From Bradyrhizobium sp. CB2312 (lineage in GTDB: Bacteria; Pseudomonadota; Alphaproteobacteria; Rhizobiales; Xanthobacteraceae), in NCBI RefSeq assembly GCF_029714425.1, contig NZ_CP121668.1, positions 124,001 through 188,000 of the forward strand: 64,000 nt of DNA. Direction: 5' to 3'. The notes beneath the pieces were generated by a model that was not told the origin of the DNA, searched no databases, and saw only the letters and a program-made list of their open reading frames with translations. Positions 7,164 through 63,295 of this stretch are shown here, piece after piece (within the stretch, counting starts at the first letter, position 1; each line of letters opens with the position of its first letter). The translations under genes and the position numbers were made by a program.

Positions 7164-8498
7164 TCAGATCGCCGCCAGCATGATGCAGATCATCGCCGCG
7201 ACCGTGATGCGGCTGGGGCCGTCACGGAAGGCGTAGAGGATCGGATCATCAGGCATCTCGCGGCGATGCGCCATCATCAGGGCGCGGCCGAACCAGTACA
7301 GCAGCAGCGGGTTGAGCAGCCACAGCATCCAGGGCCGGCTATAGAGCGGCGTCACCGCCGTTGACGACACATAGAGCGAGAACACCGTCACCGCGTTCAT
7401 CGCGCTCGCCGCCGCCATCGCGGCGATGACATGGAGGTCGGTGATCCTGTAGTCGCGGTTGGAGGGATCGGCGAGGCCCGCGCTCTCGCGCATGCTGAGC
7501 TCGCTGAAGCGCTTGATCAGAGCGAGCGAGGTGAACACGAACAGCGAGAAGATCAGCAGCCATTCCGACAGCACGACGCCGACACCGACCGCGCCGGCGA
7601 CGATGCGCAAGCTGTAGAGCCCGGCGAGCGTGACGACGTCGACCAGCATCTTGCGCTTGAGCACGAGCGAATAGGCGATGGTGGTGGCGAGATAGGCGCC
7701 GAGCACGCCGAGGAACAGCGGTGAGATGCAGAGGCTGGCGGCGATCGCGAACAGCCACAGGGCAGGGATAGCAAGCAGTGCGGAGGAGATCGGCAGATCG
7801 CCCGAAGCAAGCGCGCGATGGCGTTTGGTCGGATGCTGCCGGTCGGCGGCGAGATCCAGGAGGTCGTTCATCAGATAGGCGCCGGACGCACAGGCCGAGA
7901 AGGCCATGAATGCCAGCAGCGCATAGCCGAACGTGGCGAGATTCATCTGATGCGCGGTGATCGCAGGCACGAACACCAGCGTGTTCTTGGCGTATTGATA
8001 GACGCGCAGCGCGTTGGCCCAAATCTTCAGACTAGAAGTCTTCAGGCTGACGCTGCGTTGGCCACGACCCTCGACGCGCTCGATGGACGTGCGATCGAAC
8101 GGCAGCCTGTTGCCCGCAGCGAGATCGCTGGGTGCAACGACGCCATCAAAACCGAGATGCGCGGCGATGCCCGCGGCATGACGCGCGAGGCGGCTGGCTA
8201 CCAGATAAATCTTCTCGCCCCGCGCGCGCGCCGCCAGCGCCTGGTTCAGCACGCCGGAATCGTAGGGCAGGTGGGCGTAGTCGATGTCGGCCTGCGCGAG
8301 GACATCCGTGAGCGCCGCCATACCTGGGCGCCCGCCGGCGCCGAAGCGCGCCAGCACGCGGCCGGGGCTGGAGAACAGCGCCTCCATCAGCAGCTCGGAG
8401 CGCAGCAGCGCGCCTTCGAGGTCGATGACAAGCGTCCGCGCCGCCGCGGCCGATGGCTCGGGCACGCCAAAATCATACGGCCGGGCAGGCTGCTCCAT
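7164..8498 (-). CDS. UbiA-family prenyltransferase, DPPR-synthase-like, with a reduced HAD-like N-terminus
   Basis: Residues ~165-444 are a multi-pass UbiA domain. The first Asp-rich motif is NDLLDLAADRQHPTKR (~211-226) and the second region is YSLVLKRKMLVDVVTLAGLY. These match decaprenyl-phosphate phosphoribosyltransferase (DPPR synthase), which joins PRPP to polyprenyl phosphate. Residues ~20-135 resemble a HAD phosphatase but look incomplete: motif I is DLEG (Asp26, Glu28) where DxDG is usual, and I find no clear motif III Lys or motif IV acidic pair. DprE1- and DprE2-like genes lie 3-5 kb away. Protoheme or quinone prenylation is less likely from the motifs. Confidence 0.82.
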   Translation of the reverse strand: MEQPARPYDFGVPEPSAAAARTLVIDLEGALLRSELLMEALFSSPGRVLARFGAGGRPGMAALTDVLAQADIDYAHLPYDSGVLNQALAARARGEKIYLVASRLARHAAGIAAHLGFDGVVAPSDLAAGNRLPFDRTSIERVEGRGQRSVSLKTSSLKIWANALRVYQYAKNTLVFVPAITAHQMNLATFGYALLAFMAFSACASGAYLMNDLLDLAADRQHPTKRHRALASGDLPISSALLAIPALWLFAIAASLCISPLFLGVLGAYLATTIAYSLVLKRKMLVDVVTLAGLYSLRIVAGAVGVGVVLSEWLLIFSLFVFTSLALIKRFSELSMRESAGLADPSNRDYRITDLHVIAAMAAASAMNAVTVFSLYVSSTAVTPLYSRPWMLWLLNPLLLYWFGRALMMAHRREMPDDPILYAFRDGPSRITVAAMICIMLAAI

Positions 8499-8803
8499 CC
8501 GAAAACGCTCTCAACTGCCGCAAAACTGACCGACGCTCAGGCCGGGGAGCAGGGAAATGGACGCCCGCGAGCCTAGGGGGCATTCGCTAAGGGCGACTTA
8601 ATTTGGCCGGAGAACGCGGCCGGCCCCGGCGGGACGGTCAAGTCAAGTCGGTGTGTCGGGCTGTTGCGGGGATCCCACAACCGGGCGTGAGCTTCGTGTT
8701 CCGGCACAGCCTTTGCCGTGTGCCCCGTGGAAATCCTCACCATTCACCCTATCTGCCAGTTTCGCGCGACGTCCTGCCGCGCCCATCCGCGAACCAGGTG
8801 CCC
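8499..8803. other. Divergent intergenic region
   Basis: This spacer of about 300 bp lies between the start codons of the UbiA-family gene (minus) and the MFS gene (plus), so it should hold both promoters. The plus frame is open from 8603, but its translation is Arg/Pro-rich and unlike a membrane transporter N-terminus. I see no clear operator, small gene or dispersed repeat. Confidence 0.6.
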
Positions 8804-10075
8804 ATGACCGAACAGACGTTAGCTGCGCCGATAGACGATCAACAGGAACGGCAACGCGGCTTTTCGCGCTACCAGTCGCTCCTGATCGCGCTGCTCGCCT
8901 TCACGCAGTTCACGATCATCCTCGACTTCATCATCATGTCGCCGCTCGGCGCCATCCTGATGCCCGCGCTCAACATCACAGCCGGGCAGTTCGGCATCGC
9001 GGTGTCGGCCTATGCGTTCAGCGCGGGGCTTTCGGGGATTCTCGCCGCGGGCTTTGCCGATCGCTTCGATCGCAAGCGCCTCTTGCTGTTCTTCTATGTC
9101 GGCTTCACGCTCGGCACCCTGCTCTGCGCTGTCGCGCAGAACTACCATGTGCTGCTGCTCGGCCGGATCGTGACGGGGTTGTTCGGCGGCGTGATCGGCT
9201 CGGTCGTGCTCGCCATCATCACCGATCTGTTTCCGCTGCATCTGCGCGGCCGCGTGATGGGCTTCGTCCAGACCGCGTTTGCCGCGAGCCAGGTGCTCGG
9301 CATTCCCGCAGGGCTGTTTCTCGCCAATCACTGGAACTGGCATGTCTGTTTCGTTGCGATCGTCGGCCTGTCGATCGCGGCGATCGCGGTCATCATCTTC
9401 GCGATGGAGCCGGTCGACGCGCATCTGAAGCTGAAGCAGGACCGAAACCCGTTCCACCATCTGATCGCGACGGTCTTCGAGCCGCGCTACACGCTGGCCT
9501 TCGCGGTCACGACCTTGCTGGCGACGGGCGGCTACATGCTGATGCCGTTCTCCAGCGCCTTCACGGTGCACAATCTCGGCATCGACATCACGCATCTGCC
9601 GACGATCTATCTCGTGTCCGGCCTGTTCAGCATCGTCACCGGGCCGCTGGTCGGCCGCGCCAGCGACAGGTTCGGCAAATACCCGACCTTCGTATTCGGC
9701 AGCGTGGTGTCGGTGATTATGGTGTTGATCTACACCCATCTCGGCCACGTCTCGCTGACGACCGCGATCCTCGTCAACGTGCTGATGTTCGTCGGCATCT
9801 TCTCGCGCATGATCCCCTCGCAGGCGCTGATGACGGCGATCCCCGATCAAAGCCAGCGCGGCTCGTTCAGCGCGATCAGCGCCTCGCTCCAGCAGCTCTC
9901 CGGCGGCCTCGGCTCGGTCCTCGCCGGCGCCATCATCGCGCAGGCGCCTGACGGCTCGCTGCTCCATTTCGACCGGATCGGCTACGTCGTATGCGCGTCG
10001 GCGGCCGTCGCGCTGGTGGCGATGTATTTCGTGCAGAAGGCGGTCGCGGAGCGGGCGGGGAAGCGGGTGGTGTGA
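8804..10075 (+). CDS. Major facilitator superfamily transporter (DHA1-like)
   Basis: From the ATG at 8804 the product has 423 residues with about 12 hydrophobic segments. Motif A between helices 2 and 3 reads GFADRFDRKR, typical of proton-coupled drug or sugar efflux pumps. A second GRASDRFGK copy occurs after helix 8. The frame is open 67 codons further upstream but that stretch is hydrophilic and unconvincing. It probably exports small molecules from the inner membrane; the substrate is unknown. Some DHA1 relatives are named arabinose-efflux permeases, which is only suggestive given the nearby arabinose-pathway-like genes. Confidence 0.87.
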   Translation: MTEQTLAAPIDDQQERQRGFSRYQSLLIALLAFTQFTIILDFIIMSPLGAILMPALNITAGQFGIAVSAYAFSAGLSGILAAGFADRFDRKRLLLFFYVGFTLGTLLCAVAQNYHVLLLGRIVTGLFGGVIGSVVLAIITDLFPLHLRGRVMGFVQTAFAASQVLGIPAGLFLANHWNWHVCFVAIVGLSIAAIAVIIFAMEPVDAHLKLKQDRNPFHHLIATVFEPRYTLAFAVTTLLATGGYMLMPFSSAFTVHNLGIDITHLPTIYLVSGLFSIVTGPLVGRASDRFGKYPTFVFGSVVSVIMVLIYTHLGHVSLTTAILVNVLMFVGIFSRMIPSQALMTAIPDQSQRGSFSAISASLQQLSGGLGSVLAGAIIAQAPDGSLLHFDRIGYVVCASAAVALVAMYFVQKAVAERAGKRVV

Positions 10076-10190
10076 GGGGGCGGGCAGGGCCGGTCTCATA
10101 ACGACCCACGCAGCAGCGATGCCGGGAATCGCCGGCCTGCTATCTCTACCGACCGGAGGTCGCTCGATTTTGGGTCCAAACCCCGCAAAA

Positions 10191-10277
<87 letters not shown>

Positions 10278-10426
10278 ATGCCGTTTGGGGCACGGAGGCG
10301 GTTACTACGGTTCGGTGACGCCGTTGTCAATTCATGCCTGCCCGGTTTTGGCGATGCGGATTGCGCATCGCAAACCGGCCCGATACAAGCCTGATAATAC
10401 GCACTCTTCCTGCAGGATTGGACCCC

Positions 10427-11392
10427 ATGGCATCGAATCTGGACACGCTGGTCACGGTTTTCGGCGGATCGGGATTTTTGGGCCGGAATGTCGTCCGGGC
10501 GCTGTGCCGGCGCGATTACCGGGTCCGTGTTGCGGTGCGGCGGCCGGAACTAGCCGGGTACCTCCAGCCGTCCGGCAAGGTCGGGCAGGTCCATGTCGTC
10601 CAGGCCAATCTGCGCTACCCGGCTTCGGTCGAGGCGGCGCTGCGTGATTCGCATGTCGTGATCAATCTCGTGGGCGTGCTGGCCGAAAGCGGCGCTCAGA
10701 CTTTCGACGCCGTCCAGGCCAAGGGCGCCGAGACGGTCGCCAAGGCGGCCGCGGCGGCGGGCGCCCAGCTGATCCATGTCTCGGCGATCGGCGCCGACGC
10801 CGAATCGCCCTCGCGCTATGCCAAGGCCAAGGCGGCCGGCGAGGCCGCCGTGCTGGCCGCGGTGCCGTCGGCGACGATCTTCCGCCCCTCCGTGATGTTC
10901 GGCCCCGAGGACCAGTTCACCAACCGCTTCGCGGCGCTGGCGCGGATGTCGCCTGTGCTGCCGCTGATCGGCGCTGAGACGAAGATGCAGCCGGTCTATG
11001 TCGGCGACGTCGCCACCGCGATCGCGGATGCGGTCGACGGCAAGGCCAAGGCGGGCGCGACCTATGAGCTCGGCGGGCCGGAGGTGCTGACCATGCGCGA
11101 GATCATCGAGGCCATTCTGGCCATCGCCAACCGCAAGCCGGCGCTGATCCCGCTGTCGTTCGGCCTCGCCCGCTTCCAGTCCAACTTCCTGCAATTCGCG
11201 CCTGGCGCGTTCAAGCTGACCCCGGACCAGGTCACGCTGCTCGAGCGCGACAATGTCGTGTCGGAAGCCGCGAAGGCTGCAGGGCTCACGCTGGAAGGGC
11301 TCGGCATCGCCCCCGATTCGCTGGAGGCGATCGCCCCGCAATATCTCTGGCGCTTCCGCGCCGCCGGGCAATTCCAGCGCATGAGCGTGTGA
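10427..11392 (+). CDS. NDUFA9-like NAD(P)-binding protein
   Basis: The 321-residue product begins MASNLDTLVTVFGGSGFLG with a Rossmann GGSGFLG dinucleotide site. It belongs to the atypical SDR group that contains complex I subunit NDUFA9. Such proteins in alphaproteobacteria are thought to bind NADPH and to help assemble or stabilise membrane complexes; catalysis is not established. The ATG at 10427 is chosen over the open frame 31 codons upstream because it begins just before the Rossmann strand. It is next to tRNA-Leu and convergent with the DprE2-like gene. Confidence 0.88.
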   Translation: MASNLDTLVTVFGGSGFLGRNVVRALCRRDYRVRVAVRRPELAGYLQPSGKVGQVHVVQANLRYPASVEAALRDSHVVINLVGVLAESGAQTFDAVQAKGAETVAKAAAAAGAQLIHVSAIGADAESPSRYAKAKAAGEAAVLAAVPSATIFRPSVMFGPEDQFTNRFAALARMSPVLPLIGAETKMQPVYVGDVATAIADAVDGKAKAGATYELGGPEVLTMREIIEAILAIANRKPALIPLSFGLARFQSNFLQFAPGAFKLTPDQVTLLERDNVVSEAAKAAGLTLEGLGIAPDSLEAIAPQYLWRFRAAGQFQRMSV

Positions 11393-11405
11393 GACGTCTC
11401 TCTCC

Positions 11406-11493
11406 GTCGTCATGGCCGGGCTTGACCCGGCCATCCACGCGCTTCCGCATGTGCAGCAAGACGTGGATGCCCGGGTCAAGCCCGGGCATGACG
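11406..11493. repeat. Dispersed palindromic repeat, family A
   Basis: Inverted arms GTCATGGCCGGGCTTGACCC and its partner ending GGGCATGAC surround a short centre. It lies between the convergent NDUFA9-like and DprE2-like genes, where it could act in transcript termination or 3'-end stability. Confidence 0.85.
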
Positions 11494-11534
11494 AGTTTGT
11501 GGGACGGGGCGAGGGAGCAGACCACCGCCGCACC

Positions 11535-12275
11535 TCAAAACTTCAGCTTCTTGAACACCGCCTCCGGCAGCGTCTTGATGATCAGCATCACCAGACGCCA
11601 TTTGCCGCTGACATAGACGACTTCGGTTTTCTTCTCCACGGCCTGAAGGATCGCATCGCCGACGACAGGCGCCTCGACCGTGAGCGGGCCGATCAGCTTC
11701 ATGCCTTCCGTCATCTTGGTGCGGACGAAGCCGGGTTTGACGGTGACGACATGCACGCCGCCACGGCTGGCGCGGGCGCGCAGGCCCGACAGGAACGCGG
11801 AGAAGCCTGCCTTGGCCGAGCCGTAGACATAGTTCGAGGCGCGGCCGCGATCGCCGGCGACCGAGGACACGCCGACGATCGTGCCAGCGCCGCGTGCCAA
11901 AAACTTCTCCGCGAACAGGCCGAGGATCAACGACGGGCCTTCGTAGTTGGAGCGCATGATCGTGGTGGCATGCGCGAGATCGCTCTCGGCATTTTGCTGC
12001 ACGCCGAGCAAGCCGACGATCGAGATGACGACGTCAGGCAGCGCGGGAAGGGCGGCGACAAAACCATCGAACGAAGCGGTGTCGAGCACATCGAACTTAT
12101 GGAGATTGGCCTCGACGTTGTAGCGCGCGCGCAAATCGGCGGCATCAGGCTCCAGCGCGGCCACGTCGCGGCCTGCGAGTCCAACATCGTATCCGGCCTT
12201 GGCAAAGGCGCGCGCGGCGGCGCGTCCGATATCGGAGGAGCCACCGAGCACCAATGCAGTCTTGCGTGACGTCAC
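11535..12275 (-). CDS. DprE2-like short-chain dehydrogenase (decaprenylphosphoryl-2-keto-ribose reductase type)
   Basis: The 246-residue SDR has a nucleotide site GGSSDIG (~11-17), a catalytic serine region VSSVAGDRG, and the YxxxK pair Tyr151/Lys155 in YGSAK. Its sequence and its position directly after a DprE1-like gene match DprE2. That enzyme reduces decaprenylphosphoryl-2-keto-erythro-pentose to decaprenylphosphoryl-arabinose with NADH. The gap from the DprE1-like stop is 3 bp, so the two are almost certainly co-transcribed in the mycobacterial order. The lipid length and the final product in this organism are unknown. Confidence 0.85.
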   Translation of the reverse strand: MTSRKTALVLGGSSDIGRAAARAFAKAGYDVGLAGRDVAALEPDAADLRARYNVEANLHKFDVLDTASFDGFVAALPALPDVVISIVGLLGVQQNAESDLAHATTIMRSNYEGPSLILGLFAEKFLARGAGTIVGVSSVAGDRGRASNYVYGSAKAGFSAFLSGLRARASRGGVHVVTVKPGFVRTKMTEGMKLIGPLTVEAPVVGDAILQAVEKKTEVVYVSGKWRLVMLIIKTLPEAVFKKLKF

Positions 12276-12278
12276 GGC

Positions 12279-13604
12279 TTACACCTCATCGAACAGGCGT
12301 TGCGAAAGCTTGGAACGGATGGCGCCGTTGAGATCGAGCGATTTGCGGATCGCGTTGAAGCGCGGCAACGCGGGATAGCCGGCCTCGAACGTCGCGCGCG
12401 ACTGGCGCGCGTCTTTTGCGAGATAGAGCCGGCCGCCGGCCGCGACGACGAGACGGTCGATCTCGTCGAGAAAATTCAGGATGTCGCCCTTGACGGGGAA
12501 ATCCAGCGCCAGCGTGTAGCCGGGCAGCGGGAACGACAGGATGCCGTCGCCCTGGCCGAGCTTCTTGAGCACCGCGAGGAAGGAGGCATCGCCGCGCCTT
12601 GCGACGCGGTCGAGGATCTCGCCCAGCACGGCGCGGGCATTCCGTTCCGGGATCACGCATTGATGTTGGAGGAAACCGCGCTTGCCATAGATGCGATTCC
12701 AGTCGGCGATCGCGTCGAGCGGAAAGAAATACGGATAGAGCGAGACCACATGGCTGCCGCCGGCGCGCCGCGCGCCCATGCGGTAGTAGAGCTCGTTGAA
12801 GGCGCGGATGCTGAAGCGGTTCAGCGTCATCGACGGCAGGTCGACGGGCACGGCGAGGTTGGGATTCTTGCCGACGGGAAATGCAGCGGCACCTTCCGCT
12901 AGCTCGTCTCTGCTGGCGTGCTCACCGAGATAGATCAGGGAACGGCCGAGATCGCGCCCGCGCGCGGCGCAATCGATCCACGCCACCGAGTAGGTTGCAG
13001 CATCGCCCGCATCCAGCGCGCGCATCGCAGCGTCGAGATCGGATGCCGAGATCACGCGCTCGCGGATCCAGCCCGTTTCCACCGGCCGCAGCCGCATCGT
13101 CGCTTCGAGGATGATTCCGGTGAGACCCATGCCGCCGATGGTCGCAAAGAAGGCATCGGAATTTTGCTCGCGCGAGACCTCGATGGTCTGGCCCTGACCG
13201 GTGCGCAGCAGGATGCTGTCGACATAGCGGCCGAAGCCGCCCTCGCAGTGGTGATTCTTGCCGTGCACGTCGGCGGCGATCGCACCGCCCACCGAGACGA
13301 AGCGCGTGCCGGGCACGACGAAAGGCAGGAAGCCGCGCGGGCCAAAGGTGTCGATCAAATCCGCGAGCTGCACGCCGGCTTCGAGACGGATGCGACCGGT
13401 TGCGGGATCGAACGACCTGATCCGGTCGAACCCGGTCATCCCGATGGTCCTGACGGCGCCGATCGCGGCATCGCCATAGGCTCGGCCGTTGCCCCGCGCC
13501 ACGGAACCGGCCACCACGGCGTCGCCCACCGCCGCGAACGAGCGCGGCCGCAGCACGTCGCTATCGACGACCGGGAAACGTCCCCAGCCGCTGACGAGGG
13601 TCAT
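12279..13604 (-). CDS. DprE1-like FAD-dependent oxidase (decaprenylphosphoryl-ribose 2'-oxidase type)
   Basis: The 441-residue flavoenzyme has an N-terminal FAD-binding domain and a C-terminal aldonolactone-oxidase-like domain. DprE1-specific motifs are present: RGNGRAYGD (~38-46), HGKNHH (114-119) and YLAKDAR with Lys397. In mycobacterial DprE1 the benzothiazinone-reactive Cys387 lies 31 residues before the active-site Lys418. Here the residue 31 before Lys397 is Ala366, in GYTLALDFP. DprE1 oxidises the 2'-OH of polyprenyl-phosphoryl ribose. It is the first gene of a two-gene unit with the DprE2-like reductase. Other ALO-type sugar oxidases are possible but lack HGKNHH. Confidence 0.87.
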   Translation of the reverse strand: MTLVSGWGRFPVVDSDVLRPRSFAAVGDAVVAGSVARGNGRAYGDAAIGAVRTIGMTGFDRIRSFDPATGRIRLEAGVQLADLIDTFGPRGFLPFVVPGTRFVSVGGAIAADVHGKNHHCEGGFGRYVDSILLRTGQGQTIEVSREQNSDAFFATIGGMGLTGIILEATMRLRPVETGWIRERVISASDLDAAMRALDAGDAATYSVAWIDCAARGRDLGRSLIYLGEHASRDELAEGAAAFPVGKNPNLAVPVDLPSMTLNRFSIRAFNELYYRMGARRAGGSHVVSLYPYFFPLDAIADWNRIYGKRGFLQHQCVIPERNARAVLGEILDRVARRGDASFLAVLKKLGQGDGILSFPLPGYTLALDFPVKGDILNFLDEIDRLVVAAGGRLYLAKDARQSRATFEAGYPALPRFNAIRKSLDLNGAIRSKLSQRLFDEV

Positions 13605-13733
13605 GGTTCAGCTCCTGTGCCGGGCGCGCGCCGCCCTGCTCCGGAAACTGCCTACCGGTCAAAAGCTGATATTGCGTTGAGGCGTATCGGGAAGTTGCAA
13701 AGGTTAACGGCGTAGCACGGATGGAGTACGAGC

Positions 13734-14540
13734 CTACCTGCCCAGCGCCAGCGCGATCAGGCCGAGGGTGCCGACGATGACGCGCCACCAGGCGAACACC
13801 ACGAAACCGTGGCGGGTGACGTATTCCAGGAACGTCTTGACCACGATGATCGCGGTGACGAACGACACCACGAAACCGATCGCGACGATGCCCATGTGGT
13901 CCATCGTCATCTCGGAGCGGTTCTTGTAGAAATCGTAGGCGAACGCGCCGATCATGGTGGGAATGGCGAGGAAGAACGAGAACTCCGCCGCCGCGCGCTT
14001 GTCGGCACCCAGGAACATCGCGGCGACGATGCTGGCGCCGGAGCGCGACACGCCCGGGATCATGGCGACGCACTGCGCGATGCCGATATAGAGATACATC
14101 AGCAGCGGAAACTTCGTGGCGTCATGCTCGCGCGGCTTGAGGTCGAGCTTGTCGACCCAGAGCAGGATGGCGCCGCCGACGATCAGCGTGAAGCAGACGA
14201 CCCAGGGATTGAACAGCACGCTCTTGATGTATTTACCGGCGACGAGGCCGACGACGACGGCCGGCAGGAACGCCACCAGCACGCCGATCACGAAACGGCG
14301 CGCATAGGCATCGCCCGTGAACAGGCCGATCGCGACATCCCAGAGCTTCCTGAAGTAGAGCCCGACGATCGCGAGGATCGCACCCAACTGGATCAGAACC
14401 GTAAACGAATCCCAGAAGGCGCCTTCACCGAGGCCGAAGAAGCGCTCCGCGAGCAGCAGGTGGCCGGTCGAGGACACGGGAAGGAACTCGGTCACACCCT
14501 CGATGATGCCGAGGATCACTGCCCGTATTGCATCTGACAT
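13734..14540 (-). CDS. uppP: Undecaprenyl-diphosphatase UppP (BacA)
   Basis: The 268-residue multi-pass membrane protein carries both BacA signatures: EGVTEFLPVSSTGH (~14-27), with the catalytic Glu and Ser, and PGVSRSG (~160). It dephosphorylates undecaprenyl diphosphate to the monophosphate, recycling the lipid carrier for peptidoglycan, O-antigen and similar polymers. It lies 129 bp upstream of the DprE1-like gene on the same strand. That fits a supply of polyprenyl phosphate to that pathway, although UppP is essential housekeeping as well. Confidence 0.96.
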   Translation of the reverse strand: MSDAIRAVILGIIEGVTEFLPVSSTGHLLLAERFFGLGEGAFWDSFTVLIQLGAILAIVGLYFRKLWDVAIGLFTGDAYARRFVIGVLVAFLPAVVVGLVAGKYIKSVLFNPWVVCFTLIVGGAILLWVDKLDLKPREHDATKFPLLMYLYIGIAQCVAMIPGVSRSGASIVAAMFLGADKRAAAEFSFFLAIPTMIGAFAYDFYKNRSEMTMDHMGIVAIGFVVSFVTAIIVVKTFLEYVTRHGFVVFAWWRVIVGTLGLIALALGR

Positions 14541-60152: not shown

Positions 60153-60971
60153 ATGAACACCGCACGCATCATCGTTCTCGTCATCGCACTGGGCGCCGGC
60201 GGCGTCGCTGCGTATCTAGCGAGCGGCTATCAGAACGCGCCCGCGCCCGTCGTTCCCGTCGTCGAGAAGCTGCCGACGATCGAGGTCCTGGTCGCCAAGA
60301 ACGACATCCAGCTCGGTCAAGCCGTGAAGCCCGAGGACCTGGTATGGCAGGCCTGGCCGGCGGCGACCGCGAGCAGCGCCTTCATCCGCCGCGACAGCAG
60401 GCCCGAGGCGCAGACCCAGCTCGCCGGCTCGATCGCGCGCGTGCCGCTGATGCAGGGCGAGCCGATCCGCGAGCAGAAGCTGGTCAAGGCCGATGGCTCC
60501 GGCTTCATGGCCGCGATCCTGCCGTCGGGCATGCGCGCCGTCTCCACCGAGATTTCCGCCGAGACCGGCGCCGGCGGATTCATCCTGCCGAACGACCGCG
60601 TCGACATCGTGCTGACCCGCCGCCTGAAGAATCCTGACGGCGCCAACAGCAATGGCCCGACCGGCGGCAACGACCTCATCCTGTCCGAGGTCATCCTGAC
60701 CAATATTCGCGTGCTCGCGATCGACCAGGCGCCGAAGGAGAAGGACGGCCAGAACGCCGTCATCGGCAAGACCGTCACGCTCGAGCTCAGGCCCGACCAG
60801 GTCGCCACGCTCTCGGCCGCACGCCAGGGCGGCACGCTGACACTCGCGCTGCGCAGCATCGTGGATGCCAATGCCATCGACGGCACGCCTGAGGAGGCGG
60901 TCAGGCGTCCGGGCGGCGTGAACGTGATCCGTTACGGGGTGCAGGCGCGGCAGCTGACGTCACAGAAGTGA
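60153..60971 (+). CDS. cpaB: Flp pilus assembly protein CpaB (RcpC)
   Basis: The 272-residue protein has an N-terminal membrane segment (RIIVLVIALGAGGVAAYLASGY) and a SAF-like domain (NDIQLGQAVKPEDLVWQAWP), with the RcpC/CpaB C-terminal region GEPIREQKLVKADGSGFMAAILPSGMRAVS. It is a periplasmic part of the Tad secretion system that works with the secretin. It is the first gene of a plus-strand Cpa operon that continues to the right edge. Confidence 0.92.
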   Translation: MNTARIIVLVIALGAGGVAAYLASGYQNAPAPVVPVVEKLPTIEVLVAKNDIQLGQAVKPEDLVWQAWPAATASSAFIRRDSRPEAQTQLAGSIARVPLMQGEPIREQKLVKADGSGFMAAILPSGMRAVSTEISAETGAGGFILPNDRVDIVLTRRLKNPDGANSNGPTGGNDLILSEVILTNIRVLAIDQAPKEKDGQNAVIGKTVTLELRPDQVATLSAARQGGTLTLALRSIVDANAIDGTPEEAVRRPGGVNVIRYGVQARQLTSQK

Positions 60972-60984
60972 TGATGGGGATAGC

Positions 60985-62508
60985 ATGAACTACGGGGAAG
61001 GTCGGATGGGCCTGCGCATTCGGGGGAAGCGCGCGCGCTCGTCCTTAGCAGGGGCAATGCTGATGCTGGGGCTGGTCGCGGCCCCCAATTTCGTCGCTGC
61101 GGCGGATGCGCCGGTCGGCGATCAGGCGCCGATGCAGGCGCCACCGGATCTCGCGGTGTCTCCGGTCGCGACCATCGCGCCGGCCCGCACGCGTTTCCTC
61201 TCGCTTGGTGTGGGCAAATCCGTGGTCATCGACCTGCCGCGCGAGGTCAAGGACGTGCTGGTGGCCGATCCCAAGATCGCCAACGCGGTGATCCGCTCGG
61301 CCCAGCGCGCCTACATCATCGGCGGCCAGGTCGGCCAGACCAATGTCGTGTTCTTCACCGCCGACGGCCAGCAGGTCGCCGCCTACGACATCGCGGTGAA
61401 ACGCGACCTCAACGGCATGCGTTCGGCGCTGCGCCAGTCGCTGCCGGGCGTGCAGATCGAAGGCGTCGGCGACAGCGTGATGCTGACCGGCTCGGTGTCG
61501 AGTCCGGTCGAGGCCCAGCAGGCCGGCGACGTCGCCGCCAAGCTCGTCGGCGGCGCGGACAAGGTCGTCAACAACATCGTCGTGCGCGGCCGCGACCAGG
61601 TGATGCTCAAGGTCGTCGTCGGCGAAGTCAGGCGCGACATCGTCAAGCAGCTCGGCGTCGATCTCAGCGCCAGCCTGAACGCCGGCACCGCGGTCGTGAA
61701 TTTCAACAACTCCAACCCGTTCTCGGTCTCCGGCGGCCCGCTCGTCAGCAGCAACGGGCTCGGTGTTACCGGACTCGCAAAAGGCGTCGCCACCGTCAAC
61801 GCCACGATGCGCGCGATGGAAAGCGCCGGCGTGATGCGGACGCTGGCCGAGCCGAGCCTGACGGCGATCTCCGGCGAGTCCGCCACTTTCATCGCCGGCG
61901 GCGAATTCCCGATCCCTGCGGGCTATTCCTGCGATCCGGTCACCCACGTCTGTACCACCCAGATCACCTACAAGAAGTTCGGCATCTCCCTGAACTTCAC
62001 GCCGGTCGTGCTCAGCGAGGGACGTATCAGCCTGCGCGTGATGACCGAAGTCTCGGAGCTGTCGAATCAGAACGCCATCTCCGTGACGCAGGCGGTGTCC
62101 GCGGGCCAGACCAGCTCGATCACCATCCCCTCGATCCAGACCCGCCGCGCCGAGACCACGCTGGAAATTCCCTCGGGCGGCTCGATGGCGATGGCCGGCT
62201 TGATCCAGCAGCAGACCAAGCAGGCGATCAACGGCCTGCCCGGCGTCGATCAGGTGCCGATCATCGGCGCGCTGTTCCGCAGCCAGGACTTCGTCAACAA
62301 TGAGACCGAGCTGATGGTGATCGTGACGCCCTATGTGGTGCGCGCGGTCGCCCAGAAGGAATTGTCGCGGCCCGACGACGGCTTCGCGCCGGCCTCGGAC
62401 GCGCAGACGGCGCTGCTTGGCCGCGTGAACCGCCTCTATGGCATCACGGCCCGCCGCGTCGATCCGATCGACGGCGTCCACGGCGATTTCGGCTTCATCA
62501 TCGACTGA
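60985..62508 (+). CDS. cpaC: Flp pilus secretin CpaC (RcpA)
   Basis: The 507-residue outer-membrane secretin has a signal peptide, N-terminal domain (RTRFLSLGVGKSVVIDLPREVKDVLVADPKIANAVIRSA) and the secretin core near the C-terminus (RAETTLEIPSGGSMAMAGLIQQQTKQ and VPIIGALFRSQDF). It forms the outer-membrane channel for the Flp pilus. A second in-frame ATG seven codons on (MGLRIRG) is also plausible. It lies 13 bp after cpaB and before cpaD. Confidence 0.94.
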   Translation: MNYGEGRMGLRIRGKRARSSLAGAMLMLGLVAAPNFVAAADAPVGDQAPMQAPPDLAVSPVATIAPARTRFLSLGVGKSVVIDLPREVKDVLVADPKIANAVIRSAQRAYIIGGQVGQTNVVFFTADGQQVAAYDIAVKRDLNGMRSALRQSLPGVQIEGVGDSVMLTGSVSSPVEAQQAGDVAAKLVGGADKVVNNIVVRGRDQVMLKVVVGEVRRDIVKQLGVDLSASLNAGTAVVNFNNSNPFSVSGGPLVSSNGLGVTGLAKGVATVNATMRAMESAGVMRTLAEPSLTAISGESATFIAGGEFPIPAGYSCDPVTHVCTTQITYKKFGISLNFTPVVLSEGRISLRVMTEVSELSNQNAISVTQAVSAGQTSSITIPSIQTRRAETTLEIPSGGSMAMAGLIQQQTKQAINGLPGVDQVPIIGALFRSQDFVNNETELMVIVTPYVVRAVAQKELSRPDDGFAPASDAQTALLGRVNRLYGITARRVDPIDGVHGDFGFIID

Positions 62509-62560
62509 GACCGACGGCTTGGGGGCCGGGGCGAGACACGGGGCAAGAGGGGACAAGGCG

Positions 62561-63295
62561 ATGACGAAGATGACAGCCGATCGACGTCGCAGCTTGCGGA
62601 TCGCGCTGGCGCTGACGGGGCTCTCCGTCTTGCTCGGCGCCTGCAACACCACTGGCGAAATCGTCACCCAGACGGTGCCGACCGACTACCGCCAGCGCCA
62701 CCCGATCGCGGTGCAGGAAGGCAAGAAGTCGATCGTGATCTTCGTCGGCAAGGCCAGAGGCGGCCTCTCGACCGCGCAGCACGCCGACGTCGCCGGTATC
62801 GCCCGGGACTGGGTGCGCGAAGGCACCGGCTCGGTCGTGGTCGACGTGCCCGTCGACACCGCGAATTCGCGCGCTGCTGCGGCGACCTATCAGGAGATCC
62901 GCGCCGTGCTCGCCTCCGGCGGCGTGCCGTCACGCGCCATCGTCCAGCATCGCTACCGCCCTGAGGATCCCGGACTGCTACCGACCATCCGTCTGAGCTA
63001 TTCGAAGATCACGGCTGTCGCCGGCCCCTGCGGGCTGTGGCCGGAGGACATCGGGCCATCCATCCTCGACCCCGGCTACAACGAGAACCATCCCTACTTC
63101 AATCTCGGCTGCGCCAACCAGCGCAACCTCGCGGCCATGATCGACAATCCCGCCGACCTCGAGCAGCCGCGCGCGGAGACGCCGGCCTATACCGCACGGC
63201 GCGAAATCGCCTTCGACCGCTACCGCAAGGGCTCGACGACCGCGACCACCTATCCAGAGTCCGACAGGGCCAAACTGAGCGACACAGGCAAATGA
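62561..63295 (+). CDS. cpaD: Flp pilus assembly lipoprotein CpaD
   Basis: The 244-residue protein has a lipoprotein signal with lipobox LLGAC, Cys28. The mature part is CpaD-like (HPIAVQEGKKSIVIFVGKARGGL) and has GPCGLWPEDIGP, the Cys and FNLGCANQRNLAAMI. CpaD aids assembly or localisation of the CpaC secretin. The ATG at 62561 follows AGGGGACAAGGCG. Its stop overlaps the cpaE start by 4 bp (ATGA). Confidence 0.92.
   Translation: MTKMTADRRRSLRIALALTGLSVLLGACNTTGEIVTQTVPTDYRQRHPIAVQEGKKSIVIFVGKARGGLSTAQHADVAGIARDWVREGTGSVVVDVPVDTANSRAAAATYQEIRAVLASGGVPSRAIVQHRYRPEDPGLLPTIRLSYSKITAVAGPCGLWPEDIGPSILDPGYNENHPYFNLGCANQRNLAAMIDNPADLEQPRAETPAYTARREIAFDRYRKGSTTATTYPESDRAKLSDTGK

Follow-up and report, generated by a model that had tools for sequence, protein, structure and literature searches.

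We analysed a 64,000-nucleotide stretch of Bradyrhizobium sp. CB2312 (contig NZ_CP121668.1, positions 124,001 to 188,000; hereafter the window), which carries three genes resembling those of the mycobacterial decaprenylphosphoryl-arabinose (DPA) route: a UbiA-family gene (protein P0001), a DprE2-like short-chain dehydrogenase/reductase (SDR) gene (P0002) and a DprE1-like oxidase gene (P0003). We refer to the three genes as the module, to the window's own genome as G000, and to genomes and loci of the comparison sets by G and L numbers. An original prediction, made from the letters of the DNA alone, had read the module together with the neighboring UppP gene as a DPA-like pathway, and all four open reading frames are present where it placed them.

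Three putative donor-synthesis genes at two sites

For each of the three proteins, the mycobacterial counterpart is the best solved structure. P0003 contains both the HGKNHH and the YLAKDA (AKD) motif, as predicted, and scores 416 bits with the NCBIfam DprE1 model NF053785, below the equivalog cut-off of 500 (next model, 56 bits). Its best PDB sequence is DprE1 (4aut, E = 2e-84), matched over nearly the whole length, and G000 contains a single copy of this DprE1 relative. The DprE2-like gene directly follows on the same strand after 3 bp, again as predicted. P0002 scores over the cut-off with PRK07102 (324 bits; cut-off 267) and below the equivalog cut-off with the DprE2 model NF053786 (191 bits; cut-off 250), and mycobacterial DprE2 is its only PDB sequence at E ≤ 1e-30 (E = 5e-33). 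P0001 is over the cut-off of the NCBIfam model NF006088 (HAD-UbiA PPPRS-PRP, PRK08238; 434 bits, cut-off 351), and DPPR synthase (8j8j/8j8k) provides its only PDB sequence matches at E ≤ 0.001 (best 1e-24). Its predicted fold (mean pLDDT 82) also has 8j8j on top (E = 1.5e-9; next non-DPPR UbiA, 4.5e-5), and it has the NDxxDxxxD and HPxK motifs expected of a DPPR synthase/PPPRS. These matches are far beyond chance, and the three genes are correctly named DprE1-like, DprE2-like and DPPR-synthase-like UbiA. G000 has three UbiA-family genes; the one studied here lies about 3 kb from the DprE1-DprE2 pair, with two opposite-strand genes (MFS and NDUFA9-like SDR) in between (Table 1).

Table 1 Features of the module and its neighbors, in window positions
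Feature	Position	Strand	Basis
DprE1-like polyprenylphosphoryl-ribose 2-oxidase (FAD), P0003	12279..13604	-	NF053785 best NCBIfam model; PDB 4aut
DprE2-like SDR reductase, P0002	11535..12275	-	PRK07102; PDB mycobacterial DprE2
HAD-UbiA polyprenyl-phosphate phosphoribosyltransferase (PPPRS/DPPR synthase), P0001	7164..8498	-	NF006088; PDB 8j8j/8j8k
UbiA active-site motif NDLLDLAADRQHPTKRHRALASG	7800..7868	-	aligned to equivalent motif of other rows
Degenerate HAD phosphatase domain	8034..8441	-	DLEGAL replaces DLDGTL; motif III Lys and motif IV Asp absent
UppP, core neighbor, judged outside the module	13734..14540	-	in 147/147 genus genomes
MFS transporter, neighbor, also at module-less loci	8687..10075 (about)	+	Pfam
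NDUFA9-like SDR, neighbor, also at module-less loci	10418..11392 (about)	+	Pfam

Distribution, co-inheritance and selection

In a class-wide draw of 192 genomes, the DprE1 model matches 141 genomes at E ≤ 0.001 and just 27 at E < 1e-40, with none over its cut-off. Within a genus set of 147 Bradyrhizobium genomes, we call window-type copies (at least 75% identity) type A. Type A UbiA is present in 58 of these genomes and type A DprE1 in 59, with both together in 58; a second DprE1 type, 58-62% identical, occurs in 14. Placing the module as a label on a tree built from four flanking proteins of 60 loci, in which the same strain possibly entered more than once, requires 10 changes, 4 of them forced by starred branches. 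A rival reading, in which UbiA is a separate prenyltransferase while the oxidase and the SDR work on a different polyprenyl sugar or a small sugar, agrees with the scores under the equivalog cut-offs and with the separate position of the UbiA gene. We nevertheless hold it to be very unlikely, given the near-perfect co-occurrence of UbiA with DprE1 and the single-cluster order found in other taxa.

The sampled module copies are under purifying selection. Median pairwise dN/dS values (Nei-Gojobori; 10-45 different sequences per gene, pairs not independent, a few of the loci carrying the DUF6798 gene described below) are 0.15 for the UbiA domain (0.21 for the whole protein), 0.16 for DprE1 and 0.14 for DprE2; those of the neighbors are 0.12 for UppP, 0.15 for QueG, 0.18 for the NDUFA9-like gene and 0.23 for LptC. 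These values bear on the reading that the module is a relic, a decaying pathway without its transferase. Such decay is suggested by the degenerate phosphatase domain, by the lack of any linked GT-C or GtrA gene found, and by damage that speaks against continued selection: DprE1 has two stops in G267 and is split across two frames at L165 and L166, where sequencing error is possible, and G243 retains only pieces of UbiA and DprE2, a case of joint decay. A relic is nonetheless improbable, since the dN/dS of 0.14-0.16 lies within the range of the neighboring core genes and UbiA is full length and stop-free in all 58 type A genomes.

A degenerate fused phosphatase domain

The window UbiA protein has no Pfam HAD match and does not retain intact HAD motifs I-IV, whereas PF12710 is over its cut-off in both intact relatives scanned (L169, L244). 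In 37 of 37 aligned type A genomes three residues are lost, namely the Asp of motif IV, the Lys of motif III and the second of the two motif I Asp residues; the first is retained in 35 of these genomes. The HAD residues checked are all kept in 26 of 28 non-Bradyrhizobium rows (exceptions L082 and L083) and are altered in 6 of 12 other Bradyrhizobium rows, including all four linked to second-type DprE1 (L102, L104, L105, L106), indicating that the HAD loss is old or repeated in the genus. What is left of the HAD domain evolves under weaker constraint than does the UbiA domain (dN/dS 0.27 vs 0.15).

According to the available parts of the report on Citrobacter youngae O1/O2 (Kelly et al. 2024, PMC11127046), the UbiA domain of that system makes polyprenyl-P-ribose-5-P from phosphoribosyl pyrophosphate, with farnesyl phosphate as acceptor, and the HAD domain takes off the phosphate; in an HAD D18A mutant some product and side chains remain. 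Loss of the fused phosphatase therefore need not halt the pathway. Six of the Bradyrhizobium genomes with type A have extra HAD-UbiA genes besides (L107-L112), in DNA scored low by the codon model; at L108 a GtrA gene adjoins the extra gene.

Genomic sites and neighbors

UppP, which the original prediction had included as the maker of the lipid phosphate, is rejected as a pathway gene: it is present in 147 of 147 genus genomes and stands beside the NDUFA9-like gene also without the module, directly adjoining it in 19 of 20 loci selected for lacking type A DprE1 (the twentieth is G243). The DprE2-DprE1 pair thus sits between two core genes. It can also occupy another site, as in Bradyrhizobium rifense (L162), where the pair (81-84% identical) has none of the tested neighbors within 9 kb. 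The MFS gene was rejected as a dedicated flippase because it is also present at loci without the module (L223, L230, L231, L233, L236, L239). A promoter scan gave 1 promoter-like site (1.4 expected) and a terminator scan 12 terminator-like sites (4.3 expected).

The UbiA site lies between an exonuclease gene and the MFS gene, beside lptC-lptA. In 4 of the 20 module-less loci (L223, L225, L227, L229) it holds a pair of membrane proteins of about 505 aa, one member being a GT22 protein in both pairs scanned; GT22 and the second membrane protein occupy L223 3726-6769 and L225 7402-10448. GT-C genes appear to be exchanged at this position next to lptC-lptA.

Possible delivery components

Seven called window proteins have at least six predicted membrane stretches (UbiA, UppP, two MFS, TauE, a P-type ATPase and EI24, by Pfam). 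The prediction that the window holds no arabinosyltransferase or flippase agrees with these seven, none of which is seen to be a GT-C or GtrA protein, although not all other window proteins were scanned. In the genome as a whole, the only GtrA domain is fused to a glycosyltransferase-2-like domain, the latter assigned by eye. GT-C candidates are present and unlinked: a GT87 gene at 6.907 Mb and PMT_2 proteins at about 6.90 and 3.99 Mb. Compared by BLAST with module-linked GT87 proteins, the G000 GT87 gave no match at E ≤ 0.01, though it may nonetheless be the transferase. An A1-family search of G000 was empty and, lacking a positive control, shows nothing.

A membrane protein of family DUF6798 is encoded directly behind UbiA in eight genomes (G198, G207, G215, G224, G235, G299, G316, G337), seven of them type A, and Pfam is over its cut-off in 3 of 3 proteins scanned. 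With 10-12 predicted membrane stretches and this position, the protein is presumably GT-C-like. Five further type A genomes have the gene elsewhere, and no relative was found in G000; it is also present in G200, which is without the module, and therefore need not be pentose-specific. Of 65 type A loci in a separate set, 48 extend as far as the UbiA end, and the exonuclease gene lies 102-210 bp behind it in 48 of 48; at least five genomes entered this set twice and 34 loci are closest matches, so the 48 are biased to near relatives of the window. We infer that a GT-C gene behind UbiA was lost rather than never gained. Because the donor genes look selected without a GT-C gene behind UbiA, a consumer should exist elsewhere in the genome.

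We consider it about evenly balanced whether an unlinked GT-C enzyme, be it the GT87, a PMT_2 protein or another, uses the donor to decorate a surface polysaccharide or a pilin. Beyond the presence of these genes in G000, this is suggested by GT87 genes in the fetched flank of 5 of 6 other Bradyrhizobium loci and 4 of 43 non-Bradyrhizobium loci, and by the position of the UbiA site beside lptC-lptA, where some genomes have GT22 genes; against it stand the lack of linkage of any G000 GT87 or PMT_2 gene to the module and the missing BLAST match of the GT87. At three Methylobacterium/Methylorubrum loci (L176, L185, L192) GT87 directly precedes DprE1-DprE2, and neither UbiA nor GtrA was found in their 9 kb flanks. 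At window positions 60153-63295, about 47 kb from DprE1, lie genes for Flp/Tad pilus assembly, identified by Pfam as CpaB, secretin and CpaD. For Pseudomonas aeruginosa, the available text of PMC11127046 gives an arabinose donor for pilin glycosylation as a proposal, and by analogy pilin is a possible acceptor here.

Relation to Nod-factor arabinosylation

The original prediction left open whether the donor feeds another polymer or a Nod factor. The noeCHOP genes of Azorhizobium, Rhizobium sp. IRBG74 and Sinorhizobium alkalisoli (PMC2443382, PMC5080398 and PMC6689892, as far as the available portions go) encode homologous UbiA, DprE1 and DprE2 proteins, and the accessible part of the S. alkalisoli genome paper names noeCHOP. 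We found the S. alkalisoli plasmid locus (L243) by a plasmid search with P0001. Its order is UbiA-GtrA-DprE1-DprE2-401 aa protein, followed by acyl-carrier and ketosynthase genes and then nodABCSU, placing the set about 3 kb from nodABCSU. Identity to the window proteins is 41% for UbiA, 47% for DprE1 and 52% for DprE2, and like the window protein the S. alkalisoli UbiA has no Pfam HAD match. Unlike the window locus, which is far from nod genes, noeCHOP is near them and comes with GtrA and a further protein. In the IRBG74 paper, to the extent of its available text, deletion of noeP abolishes Nod-factor arabinosylation, deletion of noeN merely lowers it, and noeN is proposed as a phosphatase. 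By analogy noeN may instead be a flippase gene, because in noeCNHOP it stands where GtrA stands in L243.

A donor for Nod-factor decoration, as with noeCHOP in Azorhizobium and in symbionts of Sesbania, would be in keeping with the nod-adjacent S. alkalisoli set and with the presence of NodA in G000. The module at about 0.13 Mb is, however, not linked to NodA at 8.39 Mb (about 1.5 Mb apart if the single contig is circular). The 20 kb around NodA contain nodABCSU homologues and neither a UbiA-DprE1-DprE2 set nor a homologue of the 401-aa protein, the latter search being limited to that stretch, and no second, nod-linked set was found in the G000 genome. A NodA match below 1e-60 is wanting in 19 of 59 carriers, which makes a dedicated Nod-factor role unlikely, and carriers show no association with NodA (Fisher p 0.23; p 0.27 within the group of 81 genomes described below). 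We thus give Nod-factor decoration very little chance.

Comparison with known pentofuranose systems

The window shares with the three-component Citrobacter system an HAD(PRP)-UbiA polyprenyl-phosphoribose synthase, and the accessible sections of PMC11127046 name DprE1/DprE2 homologues for systems that use arabinofuranose, while Citrobacter's own is given a MATE flippase. It differs in its degenerate PRP domain and in having no linked flippase or GT-C found. UbiA-GtrA-DprE1-DprE2 clusters, common in other alphaproteobacteria (Rhizobium, Paracoccus, Microvirga and others), contain the same donor genes; unlike the window they form a single cluster, with HAD intact in the 26 of 28 rows noted above, with GtrA and often with a GT-C-like gene. 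On a Rhizobium tumorigenes plasmid (L244 8410-14600, from the same plasmid search), genes for an epimerase, an FAD oxidoreductase and GtrA come after UbiA-DprE1-DprE2-like genes, a cluster that perhaps yields another pentose product.

Relative to the mycobacterial route (Rv3806c/Rv3807c/DprE1/DprE2), the window has three of the four enzymes, implying a separate phosphatase, and its DprE1 and DprE2 are below the mycobacterial equivalog cut-offs. Window DprE1 has Ala at the position aligned with Cys387 of mycobacterial DprE1, the cysteine targeted by benzothiazinones; Ala is found in 29 of 32 type A rows, the other 3 being unreadable by pattern. The Bradyrhizobium version is stripped-down, with two sites, a degenerate fused HAD domain and no linked GtrA or GT-C found: a variant of known systems in which donor synthesis is kept and the delivery parts are unlinked, replaced or lost. 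A limited literature search found no paper joining Bradyrhizobium, arabinosylation and DprE1, which is not proof of novelty.

A proposed donor-making half-pathway

We propose, with a probability of about three in four, that the window genes supply the donor of a pentofuranose glycosylation system and so form one half of it, and that an unlinked flippase and GT-C enzyme would deliver the product. The three genes most likely make polyprenyl-phosphate-D-arabinofuranose. UbiA, as a polyprenyl-phosphate phosphoribosyltransferase, would be the first enzyme of donor synthesis. Given the degenerate state of the fused HAD domain, we propose that the 5'-phosphate is taken off by a separate phosphatase. 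DprE1 would then oxidize C2 and DprE2 reduce it to give the arabinofuranose donor, which the unlinked flippase and GT-C enzyme would place on a periplasmic glycan or protein.

Several observations weigh against this proposal. Both DprE1 and DprE2 are under their equivalog cut-offs, the UbiA gene stands apart, and some HAD rows outside type A are altered as well. The co-occurrence is confounded by shared ancestry, as all 59 carriers fall within the 81 genomes of highest UppP score. G220 has DprE1 with no UbiA found; its UbiA may be missing from the assembly rather than from the genome, because the assembly is fragmented and one of its contigs breaks off within the DUF6798 gene, of which part is present. 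Conversely, G215 has a UbiA relative (71%) and the DUF6798 gene (L113 7978-11052) with no DprE1 match, possibly a ribose-only system. No stand-alone GtrA was found in the G000 search, which did not cover MATE flippases, and neither a linked GT-C nor a phosphatase candidate was found, phosphatases (e.g., PAP2-type) not having been searched for. The route may therefore stop early or end in another product. As to the full pathway first predicted, the three donor genes hold together through co-occurrence, while completeness is not supported.

A more specific version of our proposal, which we advance tentatively and with more doubt than confidence, is that a donor-only arabinofuranose pathway is kept by selection in part of Bradyrhizobium without fused phosphatase, linked GtrA or linked GT-C, and feeds an undescribed arabinosylated envelope glycan or protein via an unlinked transferase. 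Many soil and nodule bradyrhizobia would then be expected to carry D-arabinofuranose on a surface molecule other than a Nod factor. The module would be a natural example of donor synthesis standing apart from the phosphatase, flippase and transferase steps, and a non-pathogenic system suited to finding the missing phosphatase and learning how GT-C partners get exchanged.

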